64,000 nucleotides of DNA from positions 4,030,001-4,094,000 of the forward strand of contig NZ_JACHMM010000001.1 in NCBI RefSeq assembly GCF_014204975.1, given 5' to 3'. Below the pieces are notes generated by a model. That model ran no database searches. It saw nothing but the letters and a program-made list of their open reading frames with translations, and was not told the DNA's origin. The translations under genes were made by a program, and so were the position numbers. Below, in pieces: positions 52,949 to 56,357 of the stretch (the first letter of the stretch is position 1; every line of letters begins with the position of its first letter). This stretch comes from Jiangella mangrovi (lineage in GTDB: Bacteria; Actinomycetota; Actinomycetes; Jiangellales; Jiangellaceae).

Positions 52949-53061
52949 AAATCGTCTCTGATTTTGGGACGAGCCTCCGCGAGCCAATCGGCGCGCGGAG
53001 CCGTAGGGTTGGTCAGAGGGACGACGGGGTTGTGACCCTTCCAGTCAGGGAGACGTGCGTG

Positions 53062-53895
53062 ATGGAGATCGATGGGGCGCCGCAGCTGCGCAATCCTGTC
53101 CTGATCGCGGCATTCGAGGGGTGGAACGACGCCGGCGAGGCGGCCACCGCCGGGGTCGAGCATCTCGAGCGGGTGTGGAACGGCGAGTCGGTCGCTGCCC
53201 TCGACCCCGACGAGTACTACGACTTCCAGGTCAACCGCCCGCTCGTGAGCGTCGACGAGGACGCCGTCCGCAGCATCGAGTGGCCCACCACCCGGCTGTC
53301 CGTGGCGAGCCTCGACGACCGCGACATCGTGCTGCTGCGCGGCATCGAGCCGAACATGCGCTGGCGCGCGTTCTGCGCCGAGCTGCTCTCCGTGGCCGCA
53401 GACCTCGGCTGCGAGCAGGTCATCACGCTCGGTGCGCTGCTGGCCGACGTCCCGCACACCCGGCCGGTGCCCGTCACCGTCTCGGCGAGCGACCCCGACC
53501 AGGCCGAGCGCCTCGGCCTCGAGCCGTCGCGCTACGAGGGCCCCACCGGCATCGTCGGGGTGTTCCAGGACGCCGCCACCAAGGCCGGGCTCGACTCCGT
53601 GTCGCTGTGGGCGGCCGTGCCGCACTACGTGGCCCAGTCCCCCTGCCCCAAGGCGACGCTCGTCCTGCTGCAGCGGGTCGAGGACCACCTCGGCCTGCCG
53701 ATCCCCATGGGCGACCTCGCCGAGCAGGCCGAGGCCTGGCAGCACGGCGTCGACGAGCTGGCCGAAGAGGACTCCGACGTCGCCGAGTACGTCCGCCGCC
53801 TCGAAGAGGCCCGCGACACCGTCGACCTCCCCGAGGCCTCCGGCGAGCACATCGCCCGCGAGTTCGAGCGCTACCTCCGCCGCCGCGACACCTGA
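53062..53895 (+). CDS. PAC2-family protein
   Basis: The 277-residue protein starts MEIDGAPQLRNPVLIAAFEG, the PAC2 opening (AFEGWNDAGEAA). The fold is also shared by archaeal and eukaryotic proteasome assembly chaperones, and mycobacterial homologues lie near metH. LGALLADVPHTRPVPVTV is a family hallmark. GTG 53059 is an alternative start. Given the Pup-proteasome in the same window, a chaperone role is tempting but unproven. Confidence 0.88.
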   Translation: MEIDGAPQLRNPVLIAAFEGWNDAGEAATAGVEHLERVWNGESVAALDPDEYYDFQVNRPLVSVDEDAVRSIEWPTTRLSVASLDDRDIVLLRGIEPNMRWRAFCAELLSVAADLGCEQVITLGALLADVPHTRPVPVTVSASDPDQAERLGLEPSRYEGPTGIVGVFQDAATKAGLDSVSLWAAVPHYVAQSPCPKATLVLLQRVEDHLGLPIPMGDLAEQAEAWQHGVDELAEEDSDVAEYVRRLEEARDTVDLPEASGEHIAREFERYLRRRDT

Positions 53896-53911
53896 CGGTC
53901 TCCCCGTCCGG

Positions 53912-53966
53912 AATGATCACGTTCACCACCCGATTCCCTGCCACACGAGGCCTGCAGACCTCGTGA
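53912..53966 (+). repeat. Left 55-bp inverted repeat
   Basis: It begins 17 bp after the PAC2 stop and is an exact complement of 55099-55153. The internal palindrome spans about 53944-53966. A partial extra copy of the core, CCTCGTGATGCG, follows at 53979-53990, 20 bp after the first. Confidence 0.9.
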
Positions 53967-54104
53967 TGCGCCAGTAGCCCTCGTGATGCGGGTGGCCGGC
54001 CGACCGCCAGCAGGTTGTCCACAGCTCGCGGCGGGAGCCCGAGTCGTCCACATTTCGCGTCTAGGCCGTGGCACTCGGCCTCGGAGCCGGGAAGTGTCGC
54101 TGGC

Positions 54105-55064
54105 ATGGACGAGACGCTCAGCTTCCTCGCGAGCCAGCAGCACGGCGTTGTCACCCGGGCCCAGGCGCTCGCGGCGGGATTGAACGACGACGAGATCGCG
54201 CGCCGCCTGGCGAACGGCCAGTGGGTGACCGTTCGCCGGGGTGCCTACTCCGATCGACGGTCCTGGGCGGCCAAGGACGACCTCGAGAGGCATCGGGCGC
54301 TCTGCCACGCCGTGGTTCTGCAGCTCGCCAAGCCGGTCGTGATCTGTCACGTCTCCGCGGCCGTCGTCGCCGGCCTGCGCGTCTGGGACGTCGACCTCAA
54401 CCGCGTGCACGTCTGGCGGTCGGACCTCCGTTCGCCGCGGATCGAGGGCGGCGTCCATCACCACACCGGCTCGCTCGCCGAAGCCGATGTGATGGAGGTC
54501 GACGGCATTCCCGTCACCGGCTACGCCCGGACCGCCATCGACGTCGCGCGGACGGAAGGCTTCGAGTCCGCGGTGGTCACGGCCGACGACGCGCTGGCGC
54601 ACCTGGGAACGAAGAACGAGCCGTTGCTGACCGTGCTCGACACCATGCGCGACTGGCGTGGAGCCCGCGCGGCCGGCCGTGTCGTGGAGTTCGCGGACGC
54701 ACGCTCCGAGAGTGTTGGCGAGTCGCGGCACCGGGTCCAACTCGAGCGCATCGGACTGCCCAGACCTGAGCTCCAGGTCCGCATGCCCGGCCCGGACGGC
54801 TCCGCGGACCGGGTCGACTTCTACTTCGCCGACCAGGCGACCGTGGGCGAGTTCGACGGGCGGATGAAGTATGAGGTGCTGCTCCGTCCCGGCGAGACGG
54901 CCCAGGACGCGATCTGGCGGGAGAAGACCCGCGAGGACCGACTGCGCGAGCGCGGTCTGCAGGTGGTCCGCACCGTCTGGGCCGACCTGTACCGGGACGA
55001 GGCCGTCGCTGGTCGATACCTCGAGGCCTTCGCCAGGAACCGTCGCCCCGTCGTCGTCGCGTGA
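54105..55064 (+). CDS. AbiEi-type winged helix fused to PD-(D/E)XK-like (DUF559/Vsr-like) domain
   Basis: The 319-residue protein starts MDETLSFLASQQHGVVTRAQ at ATG 54105. Residues 5-50 match the AbiEi antitoxin N-terminal domain (ALAAGLNDDEIARRLANGQW). Residues 200-319 look like a restriction-endonuclease fold: SESVGES (Glu206), DRVDFYF (Asp238) and VGEFDGRMKY (Glu249, Asp251, Lys255), then REDRLRERGLQVVRTVWADL. Such proteins are common in actinomycetes, often as orphans, and are labelled type IV antitoxins by the N-terminal domain alone. No AbiEii toxin is adjacent. The gene is enclosed by inverted repeats, so it may be a mobile or selfish gene, or the enzyme that acts on them. Confidence 0.85.
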   Translation: MDETLSFLASQQHGVVTRAQALAAGLNDDEIARRLANGQWVTVRRGAYSDRRSWAAKDDLERHRALCHAVVLQLAKPVVICHVSAAVVAGLRVWDVDLNRVHVWRSDLRSPRIEGGVHHHTGSLAEADVMEVDGIPVTGYARTAIDVARTEGFESAVVTADDALAHLGTKNEPLLTVLDTMRDWRGARAAGRVVEFADARSESVGESRHRVQLERIGLPRPELQVRMPGPDGSADRVDFYFADQATVGEFDGRMKYEVLLRPGETAQDAIWREKTREDRLRERGLQVVRTVWADLYRDEAVAGRYLEAFARNRRPVVVA

Positions 55065-55098
55065 GGGGCGCGATCACATCACGAGGACTGCGCGTGCG

Positions 55099-55153
55099 TC
55101 ACGAGGTCTGCAGGCCTCGTGTGGCAGGGAATCGGGTGGTGAACGTGATCATT
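55099..55153 (-). repeat. Right 55-bp inverted repeat
   Basis: This exact complement of 53912-53966 overlaps the mshC 3' end. The TGA stop of mshC (55149-55151) and most of its last lysine codon lie inside the repeat's TGATCA end. Confidence 0.9.
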
Positions 55154-56357
55154 TCGAGAGGGAGATGCCGAGGAGGGCGTCGACGAGTGCGGTGATGAGG
55201 GCCGGGGCGTCGGGGTCGTTGCCGGCGGTGGCGGCCCAGCGGTCGATCGCGGCCAGCGCGCCCGGGGAGTCGAGGTCGTCGGCCAGGCGCTCGCGGACCT
55301 CGGCGAGCACCGGCTCGGCCGGCGCGCCCGCACCGGACGACACCGCGGCCCGCCAGCGCGCCAGCCGGTCCTGCGCCGCCGTCAGCACGTCCTCGGACCA
55401 CTCGCGGTCGCCTCGGTAATGGCTGGAGAGCAGCGCCAGCCGCACGGCCGCGGCCTCGACGCCGTCGGCGCGCAGACGGTGGACGAAGACGAGGTTGCCG
55501 AGCGACTTCGACATCTTCTCGCCGTCGAGGCCCACCATGCCGGCGTGCGAGTACAGGCCCGCGAACGCGCCCGCCACGACGTGGGCGTGCGCCGCGGACA
55601 TCTCGTGGTGCGGGAAGGCGAGGTCGCTGCCGCCGCCCTGCACGTCGAACGGCACGCCGAGGTACTCCATGGCGATGGCCGCGCACTCGACGTGCCAGCC
55701 GGGCCGGCCGGGGCCGAACGGGCTGTCCCACGACGGCTCCCCCGGGCGCGCCTTGAGCCAGACGAGCGGGTCGAGCGGGTCCTTCTTGCCCGGGCGGTCG
55801 GGGTCGCCGCCGCGCTCGGCGAACAGGGCGCGCATCTCGGCCTCGGACAGCCGCGCCACCGAGCCGAACGCCGGGTCGGAGCGCACGGAGAAGTAGAGGT
55901 CGCCGTCGAGCTCGTAGACCGACCCCTCCATGCGCGCGATCAGCCGGGTGATCAGCGGGATCGCCTCGACGGCGCCGACGTACGACGACGGCGGCAGCAC
56001 CCGCAGCCAGGCCATGTCCTCGGTGAACAGCCGCGTCTCGGCGTCGGCGAGCTCGCGCCAGTCCTGGCCGGTCGCCGTGGCCCGCTCGAGCAGCGGGTCG
56101 TCGACGTCGGTGATGTTCTGGACGTAGCGGACGTCGAGCCCGGCGTCGCGCCAGGCTCGGTTGAGCAGGTCGAACGCGAGGTACGTGGCGGCGTGCCCCA
56201 GGTGCGTCGCGTCGTACGGCGTGATGCCGCAGACGTACATCGTCGCCACCTGCTCCGGCTCGACGGGGCGGACGGCGCCCGCCGCGGTGTCGTGCAGGCG
56301 GACGGGCAGTCCACGCCCGGGAAGGGCGGGCACGTCGGGGGCAGACCAGGCTCGCAT
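55149..56357 (-). CDS. mshC: MshC, cysteine:glucosaminyl-inositol ligase (mycothiol synthesis)
   Basis: The 402-residue protein is a class I tRNA synthetase-like enzyme: [20 protein letters not shown] (zinc Cys and HLGH motif), [28 protein letters not shown] and the [11 protein letters not shown] loop. It joins cysteine to glucosaminyl-inositol with ATP. It resembles CysS but has the MshC-type N-terminus ([20 protein letters not shown]). The C-terminus ends LLGISLSK; its stop codon is supplied by the inverted repeat. Confidence 0.96.

Follow-up and report, generated by a model that had tools for sequence, protein, structure and literature searches.

REP palindromes are common bacterial repeats. 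The type tagged by GTAG has a dedicated enzyme, RAYT, and the CGTC-tagged type is stated in PMC3733652 to have none. Two such palindromes set as an inverted pair with their heads facing outward form the arrangement called a REPIN, as described in PMC3116915. PMC8266576 reports no evidence that the tnpA-REP gene is mobile.

Here we describe a locus of Jiangella mangrovi in which inverted palindromic repeats bracket a gene of another kind, termed NUC below. The window referred to throughout is the whole stretch of 64,000 nucleotides that was analysed. As far as comparison of sequences can take it, the best reading of the locus is that of a REPtron-like system whose enzyme would be a protein with an AbiEi winged helix and a part of the DUF559/PD-(D/E)XK type, and in many related bacteria the gene and its repeat pair appear to share both their movements and their evolution.

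The repeat-bounded locus

An earlier note, made from the letters of this DNA alone, described two exact 55-bp inverted repeats enclosing a single gene, and this description proved exact in its coordinates: the longest perfect run is 55 bp, and one gene lies inside (Table 1). The extended arms are 80 nt long, 91% complementary and 1088 nt apart, and the palindrome CACGAGG...CCTCGTG is present within each of them, as the note had also said. The satellite copies that it placed in both arms hold for the left arm, which has CCTCGTGATG at 53959 and again at 53979, and for part of the right arm, where one inverted copy begins at 55077; the remaining corresponding place on that side reads CCTCGTGACG instead. 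A scan of four neighbouring genes (PAC2, mshC, metH and an SCO1664-family gene) agreed with the placement of the gene between PAC2 and mshC. The stop codon of mshC, TGA (the complement of 55149-55151), is supplied by the head of the right REP unit. Between 53000 and 56500 no Rfam covariance model matched at E up to 1, and a reading of the window repeats as a known structured-RNA family was rejected on that ground.

Table 1. Features of the repeat-bounded gene and its neighbours, in window coordinates
Feature	Position	Strand	Remarks
Left REP unit	53909..53988	+	head AATGATCACGTTCA, imperfect palindrome, tail CCTCGTGATG; first arm of the inverted pair
55-bp perfect repeat, left copy	53912..53966	+	
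DnaA-box-like motif TTGTCCACA	54015..54023	+	begins 90 bp upstream of the NUC start codon
Second DnaA-box-like motif TCGTCCACA, one mismatch	54044..54052	+	begins 61 bp upstream of the NUC start codon
NUC gene, 319 aa	54105..55064	+	AbiEi_4 winged helix at residues 4-48; C-terminal part with R236, D238, E249, D251, K255
Right REP unit, inverted	55077..55156	-	head TGATCA
55-bp perfect repeat, inverted copy	55099..55153	-	
PAC2-family gene	53032..53895	+	left neighbour, outside the unit
mshC	55149..56357	-	right neighbour, outside the unit

Ahead of NUC stand motifs of the type TTRTCCACA, which we take to be DnaA-box-like. With up to one mismatch allowed on either strand, such a motif lies within 200 bp upstream of 58 of 71 NUC homologs and paralogs (29 of them exact), compared with 0/197 other genes in the homolog loci and 4/302 and 25/810 in Jiangella stretches; seven of the 15 NUC orthologs have two copies 29-32 bp apart. 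These motifs suggest that the control of NUC may be tied to replication.

The NUC protein

Residues 4-48 of NUC match the Pfam family AbiEi_4 (E 3.5e-10), and ten PADLOC AbiEi profiles match the protein at E up to 1, their best stretches finishing by residue 214 of 319. Farther along, R236, D238, E249, D251 and K255 are invariant across 14 aligned homologs, and the D...ExD...K-type residues of this C-terminal part are presumably a motif of the DUF559/PD-(D/E)XK type. A Pfam search for a PD-(D/E)XK or DUF559 domain gave no match in the window protein; DUF559 was matched in one of 14 relatives (E 0.033), and the paralog L013, at 26.2 bits (E 7.7e-6), clears the DUF559 cut-off of 20.6 bits. The domain plan given earlier, an AbiEi winged helix joined to a PD-(D/E)XK domain with its acidic and lysine residues in place, is upheld for the winged helix and for the residues, and its second domain has no Pfam match in the window protein; the putative PD-(D/E)XK part rests on motif conservation and on the DUF559 matches in relatives. 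A NUC profile found no match among PDB sequences up to E 1, and an AlphaFold2 model built from three sequences was poor (mean pLDDT 44.6). With dN/dS of 0.12-0.23 in nine pairs, NUC is judged to be a single-copy gene under purifying selection.

Orthologs and their flanking repeats

NUC orthologs occur once each in 15 of the 22 family genomes, 53-100% identical and with E below 1e-93, and the next match follows at 1e-30. A model of the repeat matches both sides of the gene in 14 of these 15 genomes and one side in G018; the match is weak around the NUC gene of G012 (14 bits), and one arm of the unit in G021 is shortened. At 23 paralog loci the same model found nothing at E 0.1. Matches to Y1_Tnp (PF01797) were found in 0/22 family genomes by a search that was positive in 5 of 14 control genomes. 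The proposal of a REPtron layout built around an unrelated protein is supported.

PAC2 and mshC enclose the unit in the window genome (G000), in G011, G001, G005, G007 and G002, and also in G016 and G018 of a sister genus; in G006 it adjoins mshC on a contig that ends before PAC2. Neither gene stands beside it in G008, G012, G014, G015, G019 and G021, that is, in G008 and five genomes of other genera, which carry the repeat-gene-repeat unit elsewhere.

Homologs from other actinobacterial families were compared by a flank score, the inverted similarity of the 450 bp before and the 450 bp after each gene, with a threshold of 50 that was set while the scores were in view and then left unchanged; the window gene scores 127. 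At E 1e-45, NUC is matched in 48 of 393 genomes of the class, which were drawn from a larger class with at most five candidates scored per genome, and 15 of the 48 belong to this family. Of 44 distant loci listed, 33 were examined, L300 and L301 being duplicates of L281 and L273 and counted once. The earlier note had proposed a test of whether homologous AbiEi-DUF559 genes are flanked by similar repeats; 25 of these 33 (36-48% identical to NUC) have inverted flanks scoring at least 50, with sequences of their own that differ from the repeat described here. Eight fall below 50, including two at 43-44 that count as misses; L297 stands at exactly 50, and L286, at 60, scores 31 once the flanks are cut to 350 bp. 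Controls in the loci of the distant homologs reached 50 in 0/480 windows and 0/187 other genes. A head resembling TTGATCACGTTCAG or TTGACCACGT recurs in several of the distant flanks, with different palindromes. Dispersal of flank repeats beyond the family was examined in one genus, where the repeat of G256 has 59 matches in its own genome, both strands counted, and 24 in the congener G168.

Among the weaker paralogs, 20 of 23 are without inverted flanks, which are present in 1/14 family paralogs and 2/9 paralogs of the window genome. In the window genome the DUF559 paralog L013 (3751163-3752339) is flanked on both sides by a second palindrome (GATCATGGAGAAGGTCGGCTC...), likewise dispersed (79 matches in that genome), which also marks the close paralog L014. 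L014 too lies between inverted flanks (score 68), and the end of the gene overlaps one arm. Yet another palindromic inverted flank, scoring 80, was seen at L259, a paralog in G019 that lies outside the ortholog group. The flank label is clustered on the protein tree, with 10 changes against 23 in shuffles when labels are set at a cut of 45 on flanks of 350 bp (L014 is then labelled 'no' despite its 68 with the wider flanks), and several gains or losses are implied. One scan of viral contigs turned up no further relatives of NUC and 50,697 phage records held no match; plasmids gave matches in 5 of 72,556 records, at under 34% identity.

The dispersed repeat family

The window genome, 7.16 Mb in one contig, has 68 matches to the whole locus when both strands are counted, a few of them to the gene instead of the arms, and the arm matches fall at 26 sites. 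With its repeat as query, matches were found in at least 13 of 40 genomes, its own included, and all such counts, which come from a capped number of scored candidates, are lower bounds: G008 scores 0 in this search, though its NUC flanks carry repeats. The 17-base head pattern recurs, among the matches listed, on many Jiangella contigs, and the remainder may be chance.

Most of the close pairs, defined as repeat units <300 bp apart among the repeat loci fetched from three genomes, are outward-headed: 27 of 28 in all, with 14/14 in G000, 10/10 in G011 and 3/4 in G001. The spacer of the doublets in G000 is mostly 35-41 bp. Single units also occur, 13 in G000 (beside 14 doublets), two in G011 and four in G001.

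Repeat numbers in Jiangella are at least 5-35 in seven genomes with an intact NUC, compared with 0-3 in five without it (rank test p 0.0025, kinship ignored). The repeat of G019 finds 79 matches in G019, 79 in G021, 57 in G015 and 37 in G012, all of which bear NUC; among genomes without the gene it finds none in G017 and 23 in G020, the latter being an exception (completeness 93%). All these co-occurrence counts come from related genomes and are hence not independent.

A conserved head, ATGA.CA.GT in its invariant and near-invariant columns, runs through 28 units; GTAG is absent from the palindrome foot and confined to the loop of some units. In an 18-pair hairpin drawn for the 28 NUC-flanking units, 75.0% of cells are paired, compared with 66.6% in shuffles and at most 47.9% in slid versions. 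Double changes affect 14 of the 18 pairs, against 9.7 in shuffles, and 55 cells against 24.4; the number of pair types, 31 against 27.8, is in no clear excess. RNAalifold by itself predicted only 7 of these pairs on the 28 units (-0.25 kcal/mol). The two units of the window fold no better than shuffles (z -0.14 and -0.83), and two units from other genera fold strongly (z -7.3 and -6.3).

TGATCA, which reads as a stop codon on either strand, is present in most heads, and this could render insertion behind a gene harmless. In 28 of 67 units a long frame ends inside the head or no more than 80 bp ahead of it, and in 10 of the 67, mshC in the window included, the head supplies the stop codon of the neighbour, both counts being given without a control set.

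In the PAC2-mshC gap of G009 (L100), PAC2 is followed by a palindrome-like stretch of another kind, CATGATCATCAACG...GGTTGATGATCATG. Stretches resembling it, of the form GGTTGATGATCAT, adjoin several repeats of G000.

Movement, inversion and repeat type

Comparison of the PAC2-mshC interval, proposed earlier as a check, shows another coding stretch in place of NUC in G003, G008, G009 and G010. Repeats unique to the locus and a gene fixed between PAC2 and mshC, the outcome named beforehand as arguing for a static local structure, did not occur: the repeats are dispersed, and the gene is not confined to that interval. The short coding stretch that replaces the unit in these four genomes resembles, to the eye, a GNAT acetyltransferase.

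In G008 homology to relatives stops within a few bases of both repeat heads, which delimits a head-to-head unit of 1.08 kb. The left flank of this unit is matched in 11 other Jiangella genomes. In eight of them both flanks are found at a single place with no unit between them, 12, 48 or 54 bp apart in three relatives and separated by another stretch of 372-785 bp in five; in the remaining three, only the left flank was found. A doublet of G000 (L029 3325-3497) is absent in G010, where the 204-bp stretch that holds it is missing and the flanks abut. Neither the one doublet site nor the one unit junction inspected showed a target-site duplication, the flanks differing between genomes.

The orientation of NUC at the PAC2-mshC locus also varies, being rightward in G000 and G002 and leftward in G011, G001, G006, G007, G005, G016 and G018, and in intact loci the opposite orientation means that the whole interval is mirrored. 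Since the sister pairs G000/G011 and G002/G007 of the protein tree each include both orientations, at least two flips are needed.

Across 15 genomes the distance between repeats follows the distance between NUC proteins when mshC distance is removed (partial r 0.65, permutation p 0.0002), and given NUC it shows no such relation to mshC, or species, distance (-0.02, p 0.55). Physical linkage could partly cause this correlation, and dispersed repeats away from NUC were therefore sampled, 400 kb each, in G007 and G002. The best match was to the NUC-flank type of G002/G007 for 11 of 13 dispersed repeats in G007 and 13 of 14 in G002, although the mshC of G007 is nearer that of G001 (0.12) than that of G002 (0.21). 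In the two genomes tested, the dispersed repeats follow NUC type, not species. G010, which is without NUC, has 0 repeat sites in 400 kb.

The NUC proteins of G002 and G007 group with other genera in the tree despite their position at the Jiangella PAC2-mshC locus. Taken with the dispersed repeats of the same type, this foreign grouping suggests that in these two genomes the cassette may have been replaced together with its repeat population.

Interpretation and alternatives

The locus is probably that member of a mobile family of palindromes which carries the enzyme, with the order REP - NUC - inverted REP, in which NUC most likely recognises and cuts its cognate palindrome and copying follows. 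The winged helix of NUC would sit on the repeat head and the nuclease domain on the hairpin. Once the palindrome had been cut, repair or replication would copy the short doublet (a REPIN of about 195 bp, with no gene) to new places and, rarely, the whole 1.1-kb unit. New copies would often land just behind genes, where the TGATCA head is a stop codon on either strand, and recombination between the two arms would flip the gene. We infer that NUC binds and cleaves the repeats as a nuclease acting on hairpins, and that it, instead of another enzyme, does the copying.

A wider proposal is held more tentatively and seems possible rather than probable. The large actinobacterial group labelled 'AbiEi antitoxin / DUF559' may contain dedicated REP enzymes, with nuclease-palindrome pairs particular to each lineage; NUC would use a PD-(D/E)XK-based route, independent of RAYT, to copy and spread both itself and the doublets, and the DnaA-box-like sites would couple the process to replication.

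A rather unlikely alternative is that NUC guards or controls the hairpins, binding or processing REP cruciforms in the nucleoid, in repair or in the control of transcription, so that REPs are tolerated solely in its presence and are spread by another enzyme or by replication error. Co-occurrence and cognate matching would be explained equally well in this way, the upstream DnaA-box-like motifs would fit a control tied to replication, and PMC12907096 attributes an SOS response of Caulobacter cells without a cytosine methylase to a DUF559-containing Vsr-like protein. Left unexplained, however, are the repeats that bound NUC in nearly all orthologs, beside different genes across genera, and the head-to-head unit in G008.

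Less probable still is that NUC is a selfish, homing-like passenger which once entered a doublet and spreads through cleavage of alleles that have the repeat, followed by recombinational copying; the repeats would then be older than the gene and independent of it. The two arms of one locus are closer to each other (mean distance 0.146 over 13 loci) than to the flanks of the nearest other genome (0.233), and the NUC of G002 and G007, placed with other genera and yet found at the Jiangella locus, is in keeping with such an entry. Against it, flanks differ strongly between lineages and yet each brackets its own NUC homolog, and the dispersed repeats follow NUC type in both genomes tested.

It is very improbable that the palindromes simply serve as bidirectional terminators at the ends of genes and bracket NUC by chance. 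The units do lie often just behind open frames (the counts over 67 units given above, which have no control set), but only one of 286 genes in repeat-rich Jiangella loci reaches a flank score of 50, and this gene is the NUC ortholog of G011 (L062); the terminator reading was rejected on these gene controls, and the Rfam search also speaks against it. Least credible of all is an antitoxin of a type IV toxin-antitoxin system (AbiEi), as the Pfam and PADLOC names would have it, since the best PADLOC stretches end by residue 214, the C-terminal third carries the invariant D238, E249, D251 and K255, and no AbiEii-type nucleotidyltransferase toxin was found among the four scanned neighbours, which supports the earlier doubt that the label is misleading.

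Returning to NUC as the enzyme of the palindromes, such a role, if true, would make it a second, unrelated palindrome-tied protein family, in actinobacteria, and thereby an independent origin of REP spread. It would also assign a role to a group of genes labelled as antitoxins and offer a testable pair, the protein and its cognate hairpin. Should activity on the repeats fail, the finding reduces to an unexplained association.

Comparison with known systems

The likeness to REPtrons (RAYT/TnpA-REP), as PMC3116915 and PMC8266576 present them, begins with a single-copy gene beside inverted palindromes and extends to many dispersed copies, mostly inverted doublets, and to a gene type that matches the repeat type. 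Unlike REPtrons, there is no match to a Y1/HUH gene in the 22 family genomes and no GTAG at the palindrome foot, the conserved head being of another sequence. Since the Y1 enzyme and the GTAG tag are the two defining features of a REPtron, the system is not filed as one. The whole NUC unit occupies different places in different genomes, which also sets it apart from tnpA-REP as portrayed in PMC8266576.

Like REPINs, the dispersed copies are often inverted REP doublets forming a unit, nearly all close pairs being outward-headed and one site being empty in G010. With the CGTC-tagged REPs of PMC3733652, whose main text is without the word Actinobacteria, they share dispersed inverted palindrome dimers for which no transposase was found; the difference is that a dedicated gene is found here. 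A MITE and its parent insertion sequence offer another parallel, a short inverted-repeat element together with a longer version that bears a gene, but NUC was not recognised as a member of any transposase family, the junctions inspected show no target-site duplication, and each genome with NUC has one ortholog. In domain make-up the nearest relatives are DUF559 or Vsr-like PD-(D/E)XK proteins and AbiEi-domain proteins, L013 passing the DUF559 cut-off. In searches of open PMC papers, preprints excluded, nothing was found that connects REPs with proteins of the DUF559 or AbiEi kind.
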